From IMG/VR virus record IMGVR_UViG_3300049617_000202, positions 1 to 22,172 of that record: a stretch of DNA of 22,172 nucleotides; one strand, given 5' to 3'. Of the stretch, positions 4,807-21,662 are shown piece by piece. Made by a program: the position numbers and the translations under genes. The DNA is from a virus. The notes below the pieces were generated by a model. It was not told where the DNA came from and searched no databases. It worked only from the letters and a program-made list of their open reading frames with translations. The first letter of the stretch is position 1, and the number at the start of each line of letters is the position of its first letter.

Positions 4807-5622
4807 ATGAAAAAAACAGGTTCCCATGATTCCACGCGCCGGCTGACGGCGAAGGGGGTCGAGGCATCGGGGATTCCGGTCTTTTGTTCCTTCACGAAGA
4901 TCGCGCCGGCGGCGGAACTGAAGCCGTTCCCTGGGAACTGGAACAAACATCCGGCGGCGCAACTGGATCGGTATGAGCGGGTGGTGATGGGCAACGGCTG
5001 GCGCCGGGCCGTCGTGGTGTCCGCGCTCTCTGGCTGCATCACGAAGGGCCATGGCGCCTGGCAGATGGCGCCGCGCCGGGGACTCGAGGTGCCGGTGGAG
5101 ATTCAGGTTTACCGGAACCGCGCCGAGGAGATCCGCGACCTGGTGGCGGATAACAAACTGGCCGATCTCGCGGAGAGCGACGACGAGGCGTTGCTCAAAC
5201 TGCTGTCGGAACTGGATGCAACGGACCTTCAATTCGCCGCGGTGACCAGCGCTGAGTTGGAACGGTTGATGGCCGAGACGGATATCCCGGAGGGCGAATT
5301 TCCCATCACGTCGAAGCTCGGCGAGAGTTACGACTACGTGCTCATCTTCACGACGAACGCCACGGAGTTCGCCTTCCTCCAAACCCTGCTCAATATCCGT
5401 CAGGAACGTTCGTACAAGAAAACCGGCGTCGGCCTCGGCCGCGCGATCCCGCTCGATCGGGCACTGAAAGCTCTCCATGAAAATCGTCATTCCATCCATG
5501 TCGCGGGCAAACTCGATGACGAGCCACTGGCTCCTTCCAAACGCGGTCGTGTGCGTGCCACTAAGCCAGTTCGGAGAGTACGCCAAGGCGGTCCCAAGCG
5601 TACGGCTGCTAAGTCACCCTGA
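4807..5622 (+). CDS. ParB/sulfiredoxin-fold (ParB-like nuclease domain) protein (271 aa)
   Basis: The ATG at 4807 starts MKKTGSHDST. A TTG at 4777 in the same frame could add 10 residues. Residues 30-135 follow the plan of ParB-like domains that accompany phage DNA methylases. They contain PGNWNKHPAAQLDRY, then GNGWRRAVVV, then KGHGAWQMAPRRGLEVPVEIQVY, then DLVADNKLADLAESDDEALLKLLSEL. GHG replaces the usual GHGR/GERR box, so catalysis or CTP binding is uncertain. Residues 176-225 (YDYVLIFTTNATEFAFLQTLLNI..., GVGLGRAIPLDRALKAL) form a second conserved-looking domain I cannot name. The last 46 or so residues are basic and overlap the glycosyltransferase gene by 146 nt. A role in DNA modification or nicking is inferred from the neighbour. 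Confidence 0.75.
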   Translation: MKKTGSHDSTRRLTAKGVEASGIPVFCSFTKIAPAAELKPFPGNWNKHPAAQLDRYERVVMGNGWRRAVVVSALSGCITKGHGAWQMAPRRGLEVPVEIQVYRNRAEEIRDLVADNKLADLAESDDEALLKLLSELDATDLQFAAVTSAELERLMAETDIPEGEFPITSKLGESYDYVLIFTTNATEFAFLQTLLNIRQERSYKKTGVGLGRAIPLDRALKALHENRHSIHVAGKLDDEPLAPSKRGRVRATKPVRRVRQGGPKRTAAKSP

Positions 5623-6229
5623 TTGCGTCAGGGGCCTGACGCCGAAGCTCAATTGGATCCTCGATTACTTCCGGGATGAGGACGCGGTCGTGTTCGTCGA
5701 CGACGACATTGCCAGCGTGCAGCGGTGCTTTGTTTCACCGGGGGAAAGCTCCACCATCCGCGAGCCGGCGCTGATCGAAGCGATCATCCACGCCACTTAC
5801 ATTTTGGCGCGCGACGTGGGCGCTTATTACTTTGGATGGGAGGCCAGCAACGGAGCGCTCCGTTATTACACCGGGTTGAAGCCGATAATGCTTACCGGTT
5901 ACATCAATGGTTGCGCCATGGGATTCCGCAAGGGTCACGGCTTGCGATTTGATGAGAGGATAACCGCGAAAAACGATTTCGATATCGCCGCGGCCAATGC
6001 TCACCGGCACCGGCTCTGCGTTAAAGATTGCCGTTACACGTTCTGCCAAAGGGAAACCTTCACCGGTCGCGGCGGCCAGGCCGCATACCGCACTAATGAA
6101 ACAGAGAAGCGCGATGTGGCGCTCCTACAAAAGAAGTGGGGCGATATCTTTTCCTTCGGTGGCCACAGCGGTACCAGGAAGCGTGACTATGCGGGCATCC
6201 AGAAGATCACTATGAACTTACCCTTCTAA
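5477..6229 (+). CDS. GT-A-fold glycosyltransferase-like protein (250 aa)
   Basis: The N-terminus KIVIPSMSRANS is a typical first strand and nucleotide-sugar loop of phage GT-A enzymes. VVFVDDDI at 71-78 supplies a DxD-type metal site, and a later KNDFDIAAANAHRHRL (165-180) sits where the acidic acceptor or catalytic loop is expected. There is no signal peptide or membrane segment, so it acts in the cytoplasm. In phages such enzymes often transfer sugars to modified DNA bases. With a ParB-like gene directly upstream, that is the leading inference here, but no base hydroxylase or hydroxymethylase is visible. The start is firm because the first strand begins at the ATG, even though that overlaps the upstream gene by 146 nt. 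Confidence 0.78.
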   Translation: MKIVIPSMSRANSMTSHWLLPNAVVCVPLSQFGEYAKAVPSVRLLSHPDCVRGLTPKLNWILDYFRDEDAVVFVDDDIASVQRCFVSPGESSTIREPALIEAIIHATYILARDVGAYYFGWEASNGALRYYTGLKPIMLTGYINGCAMGFRKGHGLRFDERITAKNDFDIAAANAHRHRLCVKDCRYTFCQRETFTGRGGQAAYRTNETEKRDVALLQKKWGDIFSFGGHSGTRKRDYAGIQKITMNLPF

Positions 6230-11539: not shown

Positions 11540-12664
11540 GTGACGTTCACCCCAGAAGACCGCGAGACACTTCGGAAGAAGGAGCAGGCAAACTGCATCC
11601 GCAAGCTGCACGCGGGGAAGACCCTCACCCGCGACGAGCGGCGGATGCTCGATGAGTTGTCCGATAGCCAGCCGGCCGCCGGTTTACAAACGGTTGTAAA
11701 CTTCGCCGCGAACTGGGACGAGCTGGCCCAGCGGCTCGGCGTCAGCCGGCGGAGCATCTTGAAATGGCGCGAGCGCGAGGACCTCGCGGCGATGCTGCCC
11801 CGCCCCAGGGCCGATGGGCGCCATGATATCGCAGCCTGGCAGCGGGCCATGGTCGAGCATGGGCTCGCCGGCGCCGATGAATTCGCCGACATCGGGAGCG
11901 GCGTCACCCCGGAGGACGATGGGGCCCCAAAAAATCTCCGTGATTGGAAGGTCGAGCGCGAAAAGCGCATCGTCCGCAAGCTCGATATCGATATCGACGT
12001 CCTGGAACGCACGCTCCTCGTCGCCGCCGGCCTCGAGGTGGCGCTCGGCGCCACCTTCGCCGCCATCCAGACCAAGCTCTCCCAATTTCCCGCCAGGGCA
12101 GCCCGTTTCCTCGTCGGGATCCGCGACGAAGCCGTAGCCGAGGAAAAATTGAGGGACGAAATGGACGCCGTCCTCACCGATCTGCATTCCGCCAGTTACA
12201 TCGACGATGCGATTGCCGGCGTTTTTGGCGAGCCCGGGAACGCCAATCTCCCGATTGGCTCCTCAGAAAATACCCCCAATATCGAAGCCCTCGTCCGCGC
12301 GGTCCTGGCCCGGATCGGACGCCGCGTCATCAGTGAGGCAGGTCAGGGATCGGGCGCGCTGGAAACCGAGGCCGGAATGGATCCTGATCCTCTCCCTGCT
12401 GCTGCTGCACATGGTGCTTCGCCGCCACCGCTGCCATCGCCAGCTCCTCCGGCGACGCATCTGCCGGCAGTTTCACCGAAGCGAACCGCCAGCTCCCGGC
12501 CTCGTTCGCGCGCTCCCGGTAAAGCACCTGCAGTTCCCGGTCAGGAGGTCCTGAGCCTGTCGAAGGATCGTCCGGCACGCGCCAAGGTGCCAAAGGGAGC
12601 ACCTCGGCGCAAGCGTGGTAAAAACGCCGATGAATCGGCTAAGGCCGAAAACAGCACGCCTTGA
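11540..12664 (+). CDS. Small-terminase/Nu1-like HTH protein with a repeat-bearing tail (374 aa)
   Basis: A GTG start at 11540 gives an N-terminus with [24 protein letters not shown], a pattern seen before the DNA-binding domain of Nu1-like packaging proteins. The HTH follows at about 60-78 ([20 protein letters not shown]). A helical region spans about 130-270. Position directly before the large terminase supports a role in recognising phage DNA for packaging. Three repeat families read in frame: TTACAAACGGTTGTAA as LQTVV, a GGGAACGCCAATCTCC element as GNANLPIG, and CTGAGCCTGTCGAAGGA as LSLSKD. From about 12360 onward the tail is Pro/Ala-rich with codons unlike the rest, so the true functional end may be earlier. 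The last bases are antisense to the SEC-C gene. Confidence 0.65.
11684..11699. repeat. TTACAAACGGTTGTAA palindromic repeat, copy 2
   Basis: Identical to copy 1 at 2955-2970. It is in frame in the small-terminase-like gene and again read as LQTVV. Confidence 0.9.
12236..12260. repeat. GGGAACGCCAATCTCC repeat inside the small-terminase-like gene
   Basis: It begins GGGAACGCCAATCTCCCGAT and continues TTGGC, the same as the left arm of the composite hairpin at 21092-21154. It is read in frame as GNANLPIG. The internal GCCAATC/GATTGGC makes a small palindrome. Confidence 0.88.
12330..12602 (-). CDS. Candidate minus-strand small protein (low confidence)
   Basis: On the complement this frame gives [19 protein letters not shown] and then [24 protein letters not shown]. 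That composition is more protein-like than the Pro/Ala-rich + strand reading of the same DNA. It lies just downstream of the minus-strand SEC-C gene, so the two could form one antisense unit. A GTG at 12602 would start it, but the first 20 residues come from repeats. It could equally be an antisense shadow. Confidence 0.3.
   Translation of the reverse strand: MLPLAPWRVPDDPSTGSGPPDRELQVLYRERANEAGSWRFASVKLPADASPEELAMAAVAAKHHVQQQQGEDQDPFRPRFPARPIPDLPH
12546..12610. repeat. REP-type element plus 12-bp inverted repeat
   Basis: CCTGAGCCTGTCGAAGGA, a REP-type word widespread in bacterial genomes, begins at about 12550. Next to it, GCGCCAAGGTGC (12579-12590) and GCACCTCGGCGC (12599-12610) form an inverted repeat with one mismatch and an 8-nt loop. 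Both lie in the tail of the small-terminase-like gene. Confidence 0.8.
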
Positions 12665-12894: not shown

Positions 12895-15147
12895 GTGCTC
12901 GACCCTCAGACCTGGCTCAAGGCCATCATCCGCGCCACCATCCGCCCCAGGCCGCGCTCCCGCCTGTGGAAGTGGCTCGACCGCTGGGCCGTCGTCCCGG
13001 AGGAGGCCGGCGGTCCCTGCACCGGCCGGCTCCGCACCGGCCGCGTCCCCATCTTCCGCGGCATCTATGACCTGGCACAGCGCCGCGGCGTCCATTTCAT
13101 CACCGTCGTCGCCAGCGCCCGCGTCGGCAAAACCCTCTTCAGCATCTGCATGGTCCTGTACTGGATCGGCGAGCGATTCGGCCACGTCGTCTGGCTGGAT
13201 CCCACCCGCAAAAGCGCCGTCAAGCTCGTCCGGACGGAACTCGAAGAGTTCCTCCTTCAATGCAAGCCCGTCCGCGACCTCGCCATCATTTCGCGGAAAA
13301 CCTGGACCACCCTCGAGAAGTCCTTTCGCGGAAAGCTATTCCGCATCGTGGCCAGCGGCGCCGAGGCCGATCTCCACGGCTTCAATGCCGAACTCGCGAT
13401 TATCAACGAGCGCGATTTATGCCGAGCCAGCGTCAGCCGCGACGCCGCCAGTTACGATAAGATCGTCGCCCGCACCAAGCTATTTACGGGGTCGCGATTA
13501 GTCATTGATAACTCGACGCCAGGGGAGGGGGGCGAGCTGAGTCCCACCTGGCAATCCTTCCTGCGGCGCAGTCAGCATTACTGCTATTTCCCATGCCCCC
13601 ATTGCAGCCGGGAGAAGAAAACCCGAACGCAGAGGCGCAGAGACGCAAAGGCAGCAAAGGCAAAAGCTTTTAAACAGGATTTACAGGATGGACAGGATGG
13701 GAAGGGAAAACTCCCCCGCCGCCATCCTGTAAATCCTTTAAATCCTGCTAATCCTGTCGAAAATTCCCCCGCCTGGACGCCCCCCAGCGAAGAAGACGTA
13801 GAGCCCGGCCGCTCGCCACTGAGTTACGAGCCATCCCTCCGCGGCTGGCAGCGCCTCAGCTTCTTCATCGATCAAAAACTCGTCCCCTTCGATAAGCGCC
13901 TCGAACCCATCCGCACCAAGGGCAGCAAACGCGGAGTCGTCCCGCCACGCGATAAGTGGCGCGAGGAAAAGACCGGCCAATTCAAATTCTCCCAATTCGC
14001 AATCTACGAGCAAAAGCCGCGCCTCGATGACCCGACCCAGACCGAACCCATAAAGGTCGGGTACGACATGGAGGGCGTCGAGGCAGGCACCACCTACGAG
14101 TGCGCATGGTGCAAAAAGGACATCGAATTCAGCGAACTCGGCTGGATGCTCGACCGGTACCGCTGGATCGCGCACAACCCCGCCGCGCCCAAGGATAAGC
14201 TGAGTTTCCAGATCTGGGCCGCGCAGAACCCCTTCGAATTCTGGGGCCTGATCTCCAAGCAATTCATCGAGGCCAAAGGAAACCTCGGCGCGATGATCAC
14301 CTTCTTCCAGCACACGCTGGGGCTGCCCTTCATCCGCGCGAGTACGGTCATCAAAGAAGACGATATCGACCGCGTCATCGCCCGCACGCCCGATCGCTAC
14401 GTCCAGGGCCAGATACCGCGCGAGGCCGAGGTACTCACCATCACCATCGACGTTCAGGGCACGCAATTCTGGTTCGTCATTCGCGCCTGGGGTATCCTGT
14501 GGGACACTCCCGACTGGCCCACGTGGTCCGCCCTCGTCGATTGGGGCGAAGCCGTGAGCTGGGGCCAATTGCTCGAGATCTGCGGCCTGCAAGCCGATGC
14601 CCGCGGCCACATCCGCAAGTTCGTCTTCAATTACCCGGATGGTACCTCGCGCGAGTACGTCATTACTTCCGGCCTCGTCGATTCCGGGTTCGAAGCCCAG
14701 GACAATAAAGACGTCTACTCCTTCTGCCAGCGTAACAGCGCCATCTTCAGCCCATCAAAAGGCGGCGACGCCAGCAAAACCCGCGGTAACACCGTCCGGC
14801 TCTCCCCCATCATGGACGATAGCATGGACCTGGTCTGGTTCTGGTCCGATTACTTCGCGTGCAACCTATACTACGATTGCATCAAGGACGGCGCCACCAT
14901 CGCCGGCACCATCTATTGGTGGCTGCCTGTAAACGTCGATCGTCATTACAAAACCCAACTCACGGATGAGCTGCAAATCGAGAAGGATGGCCGCCGCGTC
15001 TGGGATAGCCGGACAAAAAACAATCACCTTGGCGATTGCGAAAAACAGCAGCGTGTCCTCAGCGGCTTCGTCGAGGAAATCCTCGATGGCCACCGCGCCG
15101 AGCGCGCCGCGGTGGAAAAGGCCGCGGAGGAAAAGGGGCAGCACTAA
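12895..15147 (+). CDS. Terminase large subunit, GpA type, with in-frame repeat insertion (750 aa)
   Basis: The packaging motor ATPase/nuclease. A Walker A-like VASARVGKT is at 72-80, VVWLDPT at 98-104, and a Walker B-position [10 protein letters not shown] at 166-175, with NERD in place of the usual [15 protein letters not shown] is at 208-220. A zinc-ribbon-like CPHC (234-237) and CAWC (403-406) pair is present, and the nuclease-domain TITIDVQG is at 515-522. The start is GTG at 12895. Residues about 241-290 are encoded by two genomic repeat families inserted without breaking the frame, between the two Cys pairs. This makes the protein longer than usual GpA terminases. The stop codon is part of a CGCAAAG-type repeat. 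Confidence 0.9.
13628..13766. repeat. Two tandem repeat families inserted in the terminase gene
   Basis: The first is an ACGCAGAGGCGCAGAGACGC-type run (13628-13661). The second is a hairpin in which AGGATTTACAGGATGG (13676-13691) is exactly inverted at 13722-13737, followed by more AATCCTG units. The same AATCCTG words recur upstream of the S49 protease and after the capsid gene. Confidence 0.9.
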
Positions 15148-15245
15148 CCGCAAAGATCGCAAAAGGGGGAACTGGCGGAGATTTCCCAAAACGCAATTTT
15201 CTTACGCTTCCGGAATCTTTGCGTTCTCTGCGTTCTTTGTGGTTA
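15146..15245. repeat. CGCAAAG/TTTGCG hairpin repeat, copy A
   Basis: AACCGCAAAGATCGCAAAAG at the left is matched imperfectly by TTTGCGTTCTCTGCGTTCTT and GTGGTTA at the right. The left end overlaps the terminase TAA (15145-15147). Related copies lie at 15749-15833, 18779-18852 and 21599-21662. The gap 15148-15423 before the next gene holds this repeat, a promoter-like motif, a terminator and another inverted repeat, but no gene I can support. Confidence 0.85.
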
Positions 15246-15748: not shown

Positions 15749-15833
15749 AACCGCAAAGATCGCAAAGATCACAAAAGGGAGGGGAGGTTTCGCGCCCGGA
15801 ATCTCTGCGTTCTCTGCGTTCTTTGTGGTTAAC
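15749..15833. repeat. CGCAAAG/TTTGCG hairpin repeat, copy B
   Basis: AACCGCAAAGATCGCAAAGA at the left, CTCTGCGTTCTCTGCGTTCT and TTGTGGTTAA at the right. It fills the space between the joining-type gene and the portal gene. Confidence 0.88.
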
Positions 15834-17431: not shown

Positions 17432-17652
17432 TCGCCGATTTACAACCGTTTGTAATTCCGCATTCCGCACTCCGCATTCCGCATTGCTTCGCCCCCGTCG
17501 ATTGGCCCGGCGACGAAGACGAAATGGAATCCGTTTTTGCCCGCAACCGCCGCACTTCGCCCCATAAGTCCCACGCAATCAGACATAGGTTGTCTACATG
17601 TAGACAAGTCGGCGCCCCCCTTGGGCGGGCGAAGCAAAGCGAAGCCCCCTGA
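17428..17652 (+). CDS. Small repeat-laden ORF after portal (74 aa)
   Basis: The ATG at 17428 overlaps the portal stop. The peptide starts MIADLQPFVIPHSALRIPHC, which comes from a TTACAACCGTTTGTAA repeat followed by CATTCCGCA-type repeats. The middle (FAPVDWPGDEDEMESVFARNRRTSPHKSH) is the only part that looks like ordinary protein. The end comes from the TTGTCTACATGTAGACAA palindrome and a GC-rich repeat. It may be a small phage gene heavily invaded by repeats or a remnant. Function unknown. Confidence 0.4.
   Translation: MIADLQPFVIPHSALRIPHCFAPVDWPGDEDEMESVFARNRRTSPHKSHAIRHRLSTCRQVGAPLGRAKQSEAP
17440..17487. repeat. TTACAACCGTTTGTAA copy 3 (inverted) plus CATTCCGCA repeat string
   Basis: The 16-bp element at 17440-17455 is the reverse complement of copies 1 and 2. 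It is followed at once by tandem CATTCCGCA/CTCCGCATTCCGC units up to about 17487. Confidence 0.88.
17590..17607. repeat. Perfect 18-bp palindrome TTGTCTACATGTAGACAA
   Basis: The sequence equals its own reverse complement over all 18 bases. It lies inside the small ORF after the portal gene. It could be a repeat element or a binding site; no second copy was seen in this window. Confidence 0.9.
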
Positions 17653-17841: not shown

Positions 17842-17845
17842 TCCC

Positions 17846-17890
17846 AATCCTGTCCATCCTGTCCATCCCGTAAATCCTGTCTAAAAATTC
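17846..17890. repeat. AATCCTGTCCATCCTGTCC repeat string upstream of the protease gene
   Basis: Tandem AATCCTGTC/CATCCTGTC/CATCCCGTAAATCCTGTC units end in TAAAAATTC directly before the protease ATG at 17892. A similar string ending in TAAAAATTC lies at 20481-20517, and related units lie in the terminase gene. Confidence 0.88.
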
Positions 17891-17891
17891 C

Positions 17892-18779
17892 ATGCGAATC
17901 CCCGAGTTCCTGTTGAGCGAGCCCCTGGCCGTCCACGCCCCGTCGCTGGCAGGGTGGATGATGCGGCGCGAGCGCATCGAGGCGATCCTAATGGGCGCCG
18001 ATCCGCGCGGTGCGTCGCGGGAGTCTCAGTCCTCCGCCCCGGACCCCGCGAGGTTCGATTGGTTGGCTGCTTACGTCAATGGGCGGCGCCCGTACCAGGT
18101 CACGAACGGGATCGCGGCGATTCATGCCAACGAGATCCTTGCCCGCACGCATACCACTTTCGACAAGGCCTACGGCGACACCCATTACAACGACCTGATT
18201 TCCGAACTCGGCCAGGCCGCCGGCGACGACAAGGTGCGCGGCATCCGGCTCGATATTTCCAGCCCCGGCGGTTCCGCGGTCGGCGCACCCGAGGCAGCCG
18301 CGGCCGTCCTGGCAGCGCGCCAGCAAAAGCCCGTCGTGTCCCACATTGAAACCGTGGGCGCCAGCGCCGCGTACTATCTCGCCGCAGCCAGCAACGCCAT
18401 CATAGTATCGCCCAGCGCCATTGTCGGCAGCGTCGGCACCATCTCCATGTTCGCGGATATCTCCGCGATGCTCGAAAAAATGGGCGTCAAGGTCAACCTG
18501 ATGACGCCCAAGGTCAGCGACCTGAAGGCAGCAGGCAACCAAGTCCGCCCGATGACTGATGACGAGCAGGATTACCTCCAGGACCGCCTCGAATCCATCA
18601 ACGCGAAATTCACCGGCTGGGTTCAATCCAACAGGCCCGGCGTCAGCGACGACGCGATGCGCGGCCAGTGGTTCTCCGGCCAGGACGCCGTCGACCAGGG
18701 CCTCGCCGATTGCACCGGCAGCGTCGACGACGCCAACGCCGCCCTCGATGCGCTGATAGCTTACTCGAACGGGGAGTGA
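17892..18779 (+). CDS. Prohead protease, S49/ClpP-fold (295 aa)
   Basis: Residues about 65-275 follow the S49 (SppA-like, lambda gpC N-terminal) protease plan: GIRLDISSPGGSAVGAPEAA (117-136), then HIETVGASAAYYLAAASNAIIVSPSAIVGSVGTIS, where Ser158 in GAS is the likely nucleophile. K207 or K212 (TPKVSDLKAAG) is a candidate general base. It cleaves scaffold and head proteins during capsid maturation. In lambda this domain is fused to the scaffold region. Here the scaffold candidate is separate and next downstream. The ATG at 17892 follows the TAAAAATTC end of a repeat, with no Shine-Dalgarno. Confidence 0.92.
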   Translation: MRIPEFLLSEPLAVHAPSLAGWMMRRERIEAILMGADPRGASRESQSSAPDPARFDWLAAYVNGRRPYQVTNGIAAIHANEILARTHTTFDKAYGDTHYNDLISELGQAAGDDKVRGIRLDISSPGGSAVGAPEAAAAVLAARQQKPVVSHIETVGASAAYYLAAASNAIIVSPSAIVGSVGTISMFADISAMLEKMGVKVNLMTPKVSDLKAAGNQVRPMTDDEQDYLQDRLESINAKFTGWVQSNRPGVSDDAMRGQWFSGQDAVDQGLADCTGSVDDANAALDALIAYSNGE

Positions 18780-18852
18780 CCGCAAAGAACGCAAAGAGCG
18801 CAAAGGGGAGGGTGTCCGGAATCTCTGCGTTCTCCGCGCTCTTTGCGGTTAA
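18779..18852. repeat. CGCAAAG/TTTGCG hairpin repeat, copy C
   Basis: ACCGCAAAGAACGCAAAGAG on the left pairs with CTCCGCGCTCTTTGCGGT on the right. The left end touches the protease stop codon (18777-18779). Confidence 0.88.
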
Positions 18853-20480: not shown

Positions 20481-20517
20481 TCATCCTGTTCATCCCGTCA
20501 TCCTGTCTAAAAATTCT
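20481..20517. repeat. CATCCTGTTCATCCCGTCATCC repeat string after the capsid gene
   Basis: Units TCATCCTGTT, CATCCCG and TCATCCTGTC end in TAAAAATTC, as at 17846-17890. It starts right after the capsid TAA and lies 21 bp before the next ATG. Confidence 0.85.
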
Positions 20518-21054: not shown

Positions 21055-21177
21055 ATGTGGGACCCTGGGGGACGCTCCCCACATTTTCCCTGGGAACGCC
21101 AATCTCCCGATTGGCCTCCGCTTCCCAAATGCCAATCAGGAGATTGGCGTTCCCGGGTGAATTACAACCGTTTGTAA
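21055..21177. repeat. Composite repeat region: three inverted repeats in a row
   Basis: ATGTGGG (21055-21061) with CCCACAT (21078-21084). Then 24-bp arms beginning GGGAACGCCAATCTCC (21092-21115 and 21131-21154), with one mismatch and a 15-nt loop. Then TTACAACCGTTTGTAA copy 4 (21162-21177), ending 1 nt before the next ATG. The second element shares its arm with the copy at 12236-12260. Confidence 0.9.
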
Positions 21178-21598: not shown

Positions 21599-21662
21599 AA
21601 CCGCGGAGAACGCAAAGATCACAAAGATTTTTTGCTCTGCGTTCTTTGCGTTCTTTGTGGTC
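21599..21662. repeat. CGCAAAG/TTTGCG hairpin repeat, copy D
   Basis: AACCGCGGAGAACGCAAAGA on the left and GCGTTCTTTGCGTTCTTTGT plus GGTC on the right, with a short T-rich centre. The ATG of the next gene follows directly, so the repeat forms its entire leader. Confidence 0.88.

Follow-up and report, generated by a model that had tools for sequence, protein, structure and literature searches.

An in-frame bacterial hairpin repeat in the probable zinc-ribbon loop of a phage large terminase

This analysis indicated that the large terminase gene (terL) of the virus record IMGVR_UViG_3300049617_000202 contains, in frame, a complete copy of a dispersed hairpin repeat. Our preferred reading, to which we give a probability of roughly three in four, is that a bacterial palindromic repeat landed in a permissive zinc-ribbon loop of the protein (TerL), which most likely still packages DNA. 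The stretch analysed (the window, 22,172 bp) carries a lambda-like packaging and head module, in which Pfam and PHROGs identified a small terminase (phrog_57), a GpA large terminase, a lambda-type portal, an S49 protease and a GP7-type capsid protein. Exact repeats of at least 14 bp cover 807 bases of the window, versus 28-225 in shuffled sequences.

The terL hairpin, TTTTAAACAGGAT...ATCCTGTCGAAAA, was located by folding and repeat matches at about 13668..13763, its outer limits being set from other copies of the element. These 96 bp correspond to 32 codons, situated between the two CxxC pairs of TerL, and their translation begins QDLQDGQDG. The hairpin consists of a short loop flanked by inverted arrays of a 9-bp unit, CAGGATNNA; repeat comparison placed three units in the left arm (13674..13700, plus strand), and four reversed units form the right arm (13722..13757, minus strand), which pairs with the left one unit out of register. 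The 16-bp arms described as perfect in an earlier note on this DNA (13676-13691 and 13722-13737) are indeed exact, and they lie within a larger imperfect hairpin (13674-13757). RNA folding of 13620-13790 gave -61.2 kcal/mol (z -4.56, none of 200 shuffles being as good), and the 24-mer CAGGATTTACAGGATGGACAGGAT had four matches in the window with at most three mismatches, where 0.00 were expected from shuffles; the hairpin is far beyond chance. The search made in the hairpin analysis found no Rfam match, and no target-site duplication was evident by eye at the element.

The earlier note had traced the insert to two repeat families with intergenic relatives in the window, which holds for one of them. 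The CAGGAT family does have such relatives: repeat comparison revealed an array between the portal and S49 protease genes (17844..17890, minus strand), and a partial element follows the capsid gene (20483..20516, minus strand), sharing the 17-mer ATCCTGTCTAAAAATTC with 17874-17890. The second family, an 8-bp-period repeat of ACGCAGAGGCGCAGAGACGCAAAGGCAGCAAAGG on the 5' side of the hairpin (13626..13661, plus strand, pattern ACGCAGAGGCGCAGAGACGCAAAGG, translated into about 12 residues), has no close copy elsewhere in the window (best 22/35); its best match, 27/35, lies between genes in a related phage, G001 (see below), immediately behind the portal gene. Four intergenic CGCAAAGNN hairpins of 9-bp period, lying at 15146..15245 (directly after terL), 15749..15831, 18777..18850 and 21600..21661, have only the motif in common with this 8-bp repeat.

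The terL gene itself (12895..15147, plus strand) is an intact open reading frame with a GTG start, encoding a 750-aa TerL of GpA type according to Pfam and phrog_15. It matched both GpA_ATPase (PF05876; E 3.3e-23, 83 bits, curated cut-off 25.6) and GpA_nuclease (PF20454; E 4.7e-18, 65.8 bits, cut-off 22.5); the earlier view that genomic repeats sit in frame between the Cys pairs of a GpA terminase is supported. Alignment with 10 phage terminases placed Walker A at SARVGKT (residues 74-80, 13114..13134, plus strand). In the alignment, the Walker B position is occupied by NERD (residues 171-174, 13405..13416, plus strand), where Asn replaces Asp and Glu is kept. The same NERD is present in G001, while phage nd4 has DERD; the window and G001 thus have Asn-Glu in place of the usual Asp-Glu, which the family models do not require. 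The motif is therefore atypical, as previously noted, but, being common to both phages, it lends no support to the idea of damage. The two Cys of the first zinc knuckle, CPHC (residues 234-237, 13594..13605, plus strand), are conserved without exception across 12 GpA terminases, and the second knuckle, CAWC (residues 403-406, 14101..14112, plus strand), was assigned from the alignment and the positions of Cys pairs. TerL resembles the lambda gpA family in its ATPase and nuclease domains, its paired CxxC motifs and the lambda-type portal and S49-type protease encoded downstream, and differs from it by the Asn at the Walker B Asp and by its 165-residue loop.

The spacing between the CxxC pairs is indeed highly variable, with about 20-47 residues in named GpA terminases, 129 in G001 and 165 in the window. 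About 70 extra loop residues are common to the window and G001 and absent from named relatives, so that the loop was already enlarged in their lineage. A GpA profile over the knuckles matched the ribosomal L44e zinc ribbon in PDB (E 6.6e-4), in which the inter-Cys segment is likewise long, and this match supports a zinc ribbon at the TerL knuckles. A single-sequence search of PDB found no TerL homologue, and the profile gave only zinc ribbons of L44e type. From these comparisons, the inter-Cys loop probably belongs to a zinc ribbon that separates the ATPase part of the protein from the nuclease part. We infer that the insert is exposed at the surface of TerL, an AlphaFold model built from two sequences being unusable (mean pLDDT 31.5).

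The related phage G001 (IMGVR_UViG_3300041432_000025, L006/G001) is collinear with most of the window. It was the only close relative that profile and single-protein scans returned from the collections searched. Its TerL is 82% identical to that of the window and lacks the hairpin: after the first knuckle, 72 residues of the window stand opposite CPYCSAYSAAQSERSRKSKAPAEPWVAPSNEDVEPG in G001, and both proteins resume at the same conserved motif, with a net difference of 36 codons. The in-frame insert is thus flanked on both sides by conserved TerL sequence. The corresponding part of G001 terL contains no exact repeats of at least 14 bp, and the CAGGAT copies of G001 are between genes. At the place of the 8-bp repeat, G001 has its own non-repeat stretch, rich in Arg, Lys and Ser, with no significant similarity to that of the window (28% of shuffles were as good). 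An insert is therefore present as proposed earlier, but its clearly lineage-specific part is the hairpin of about 32 codons (net 36 versus G001) rather than some 46 codons. The relatives aligned, G001 without the hairpin and named terminases with shorter loops, have shorter and unrelated sequence here; homologous non-repeat sequence of the same length, which by the earlier note would have refuted its reading, did not turn up. Loops of about 20 to 165 residues among relatives, together with the hairpin-free G001, fit the earlier suggestion of a loop that tolerates large inserts.

As G001 is the single close relative, and polarity is set without an outgroup of similar divergence, one may ask whether the ancestral loop was the longer one, the hairpin having since disappeared from G001. 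We consider this very unlikely, since the element is a dispersed repeat, with copies elsewhere in the window genome and in other phyla, and since the loops of the named GpA relatives are short and free of the repeat; a gain in the window is favoured. Its age is another matter: synonymous sites of terL are near saturation between the two phages, so that the insertion cannot be dated from G001, and the left arm is 89% complementary, over 38 nt, to the intergenic copy at 17849-17886, which does not bear out the idea of a recent insertion.

Selection was detected in terL, with a pN/pS of 0.16 versus G001, and values ranged from 0.12 to 0.42 across the 11 genes compared (terL and 10 others), as averages over the whole divergence and not over the period since insertion. 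The gene is under purifying selection; this, the lack of frameshifts and the shared NERD with its kept Glu speak for a gene that was functional until the insertion. The earlier note had raised the alternative of a compromised terminase in a decaying prophage; on this view the insert would be an early step of decay. A conserved motor gene interrupted by 32 codons that form a stable hairpin would be in line with this, as would the Asn at the Walker B Asp. Yet neither terL nor the other genes compared showed any stop or frameshift, the Asn is common to G001, the catalytic Glu is kept and a second phage, seen in three records, carries the same kind of insert. With these pN/pS values and a shared NERD, nothing points to decay, which appears unlikely.

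Other repeat families of the window touch other genes. A 16-bp near-palindrome, TTACAAACGGTTGTAA, occurs in four identical copies (2955-2970, 11684-11699, 17440-17455 and 21162-21177), two per orientation, where none is expected by chance. Its counterpart in G001 is TTACAAACGTCTGTAA (three copies) and the perfect TTACAAACGTTTGTAA (one copy), at reverse-complement coordinates 5746, 12026, 15469 and 21714. Three copies are positionally equivalent in the two phages, one lying within the small terminase gene, one behind the portal gene and one ahead of ORF 21179; each genome has its own version, and the copy in the small terminase is in frame, reading LQTVVN versus LQTSVN. Such concerted change points to a site bound by a protein, perhaps parS bound by the ParB-like protein encoded at 1197-2984. 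The window also encodes a DUF932/TIGR03299 protein of phage/plasmid type (6593-7552) and no integrase was noticed in it, so the record is possibly a phage-plasmid. The palindrome GTTGGTTTAAAACCAAC or a close variant of it occurs seven times at 50-450, four of the copies being spaced 22-24 bp and the group lying partly within ORF 242-790, an iteron- or operator-like arrangement. The repeat CCCGGGAACGCCAATCTCCCGATTGGC is found at 12233-12259, 21089-21115 and 21131-21157, where one copy is read in frame, as PGNANLPIG, by the small terminase gene and the other two face each other between genes; near this place the G001 small terminase has a different repeat, of GGCTACGCCGGGACAAGG type. The in-frame CAGGAT hairpins found are those of terL cases only, the small terminase and ParB genes carrying other repeat families.

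The CAGGAT family extends well beyond these phages. Two plasmids that were checked, one from Spirosoma (Bacteroidota, E 2e-8) and one from Thiodictyon (Gammaproteobacteria, E 3e-6), carry hairpins of the same design between their annotated genes, so that the family is not confined to a single bacterial phylum. The 9-bp unit was not printed as a genomic repeat in the literature searched, and the hairpins are apparently unnamed there. For a survey of viruses, IMG/VR was scanned for CAGGATNNACAGGATNNACAGGAT, which gave 98 stretches, and an inverted partner was then required, yielding a short list of elements. Most of these have no open frame across them on either strand; in L053 and L078 an open frame exists on the minus strand alone, and that of L053 does not read as a gene. 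Many pattern hits in viral open reading frames, where the pattern encodes DPVDPV, TGYTGY or TGSTGS, were rejected as coincidence in low-complexity proteins, and the frame of L053, like further open frames spanning the pattern, was rejected for lack of family support. A hairpin of L019 that lies in an open frame, considered as an in-gene candidate, was set aside because the element is just upstream of a terminase start; it is a CGCAAAG hairpin of 9-bp period (5595-5653), directly upstream of what appears to be another terminase gene. In L078 (1671-1818 and 2203-2340) and L085 (1495-1640), another hairpin, made of a related unit (for example ACAGGGATGGAGGGGATA), sits within the loop of the CAGGAT hairpin, forming nested elements.

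One in-frame case emerged from this survey. L037 has a 903-codon open frame that reads through a CAGGAT hairpin between CPAC and CVAC, in frame, giving DRINKMDRMENNPVNPVHPV; the product is a GpA terminase (PF05876, E 5.6e-7; phrog_675, E 3.7e-33), whose distant relatives in Dolphis, Rhodovastum and a Yersinia phage have a short loop. L037, L103 and L062 are 99.97-100% identical, and thus represent the same phage in three IMG/VR records, so that the case counts once. BLASTP between the window and L037 terminases gave its best match only over the loop (E 0.036) and nothing significant outside it, and the two genes adjoin different portal families, on which grounds we regard the insertions as independent. 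The parallel rests on two phages, L037 having no close relative lacking the insert. Other hairpins of the family in viral contigs are apparently intergenic, with no open frame or one without sign of a gene. As the loop makes up, by our estimate, very roughly 1% of phage coding sequence, one independently found coding insertion landing in it is suggestive, and the inter-Cys loop of GpA terminases seems to tolerate such insertions.

The second case also bears on a trivial explanation. Short repeats can cause misassembly of metagenomes, and could have misjoined two halves of terL; with contiguous TerL sequence in the correct frame on both flanks, and a parallel case in three records that are identical over their overlap around the insert, we regard such an artefact as extremely improbable. 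The hairpin might alternatively be kept for a function: it could influence translation or stability of the terL mRNA, serve as a DNA site in replication or packaging, or provide a peptide loop with a role of its own. Hairpins of this one family indeed occupy the same loop of two unrelated terminases, and the other window copies follow genes, where mRNA hairpins often act. The arms nevertheless differ between the phages in the NN dinucleotides, their left-arm peptides being QDLQDGQDG and DRINKMDRME, the hairpin is absent from G001 and all named relatives aligned, and tolerance alone could explain the position; a function of the hairpin thus seems to us improbable. A bolder proposal, that the GpA zinc-ribbon loop is a recurrent landing site of one widespread bacterial hairpin family, favoured or functional there, and that bacterial repeats repeatedly remodel the packaging motor, is put forward only tentatively and seems to us rather unlikely.

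From a mechanistic point of view, the preferred reading of a tolerated landing would involve a palindromic element, made of inverted CAGGATNNA arrays, spread by a mobiliser through bacterial plasmid and phage genomes. One copy would have inserted itself into the inter-knuckle loop, in frame and bringing no stop codon, next to the 8-bp-period repeat, and about 32 extra residues would be carried in a loop of the probable zinc ribbon where family inserts already vary greatly in length. TerL with its insert most likely still packages DNA; we infer both this retained function and the mode of insertion.

Foreign sequence inside phage terL genes is already known in the form of inteins and introns. 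The CAGGAT insert is likewise foreign sequence within terL, but it has no matched splicing or endonuclease domain (no intein family in Pfam or PHROGs matched the 32 codons), stays in the protein and does not lie at a catalytic motif. REP/REPIN and MITE-like elements are also short imperfect hairpins with several, mostly intergenic, copies per genome; the CAGGAT family differs in having no target-site duplication evident by eye. The closest analogy is with Rickettsia palindromic elements, which are found in intergenic regions and also, in frame, within unrelated genes whose proteins are reported to stay active (PMC10969869, PMC6649704). In the same way, the CAGGAT family is a dispersed palindromic repeat with intergenic copies, and one copy is in frame within a conserved gene while absent from the G001 orthologue. 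The differences are a phage motor gene, inverted 9-bp arrays, more than one phylum and only two in-frame cases found, and the likeness is offered as an analogy. The terL insertion may therefore best be read as a phage analogue working like a Rickettsia element, without membership of that family being claimed.

In-frame palindromic elements as such are already known from Rickettsia, and what is new here is the phage motor gene, the repeat family and the repeated position. Palindromic repeats read in frame within proteins are best known from these bacteria; here members of a family common to several phyla occur in two cases at one and the same loop of a phage motor protein. If our reading holds, the CAGGAT hairpins deserve description as a repeat family, and the inter-knuckle loop would be a site where the packaging motor accepts extra sequence.
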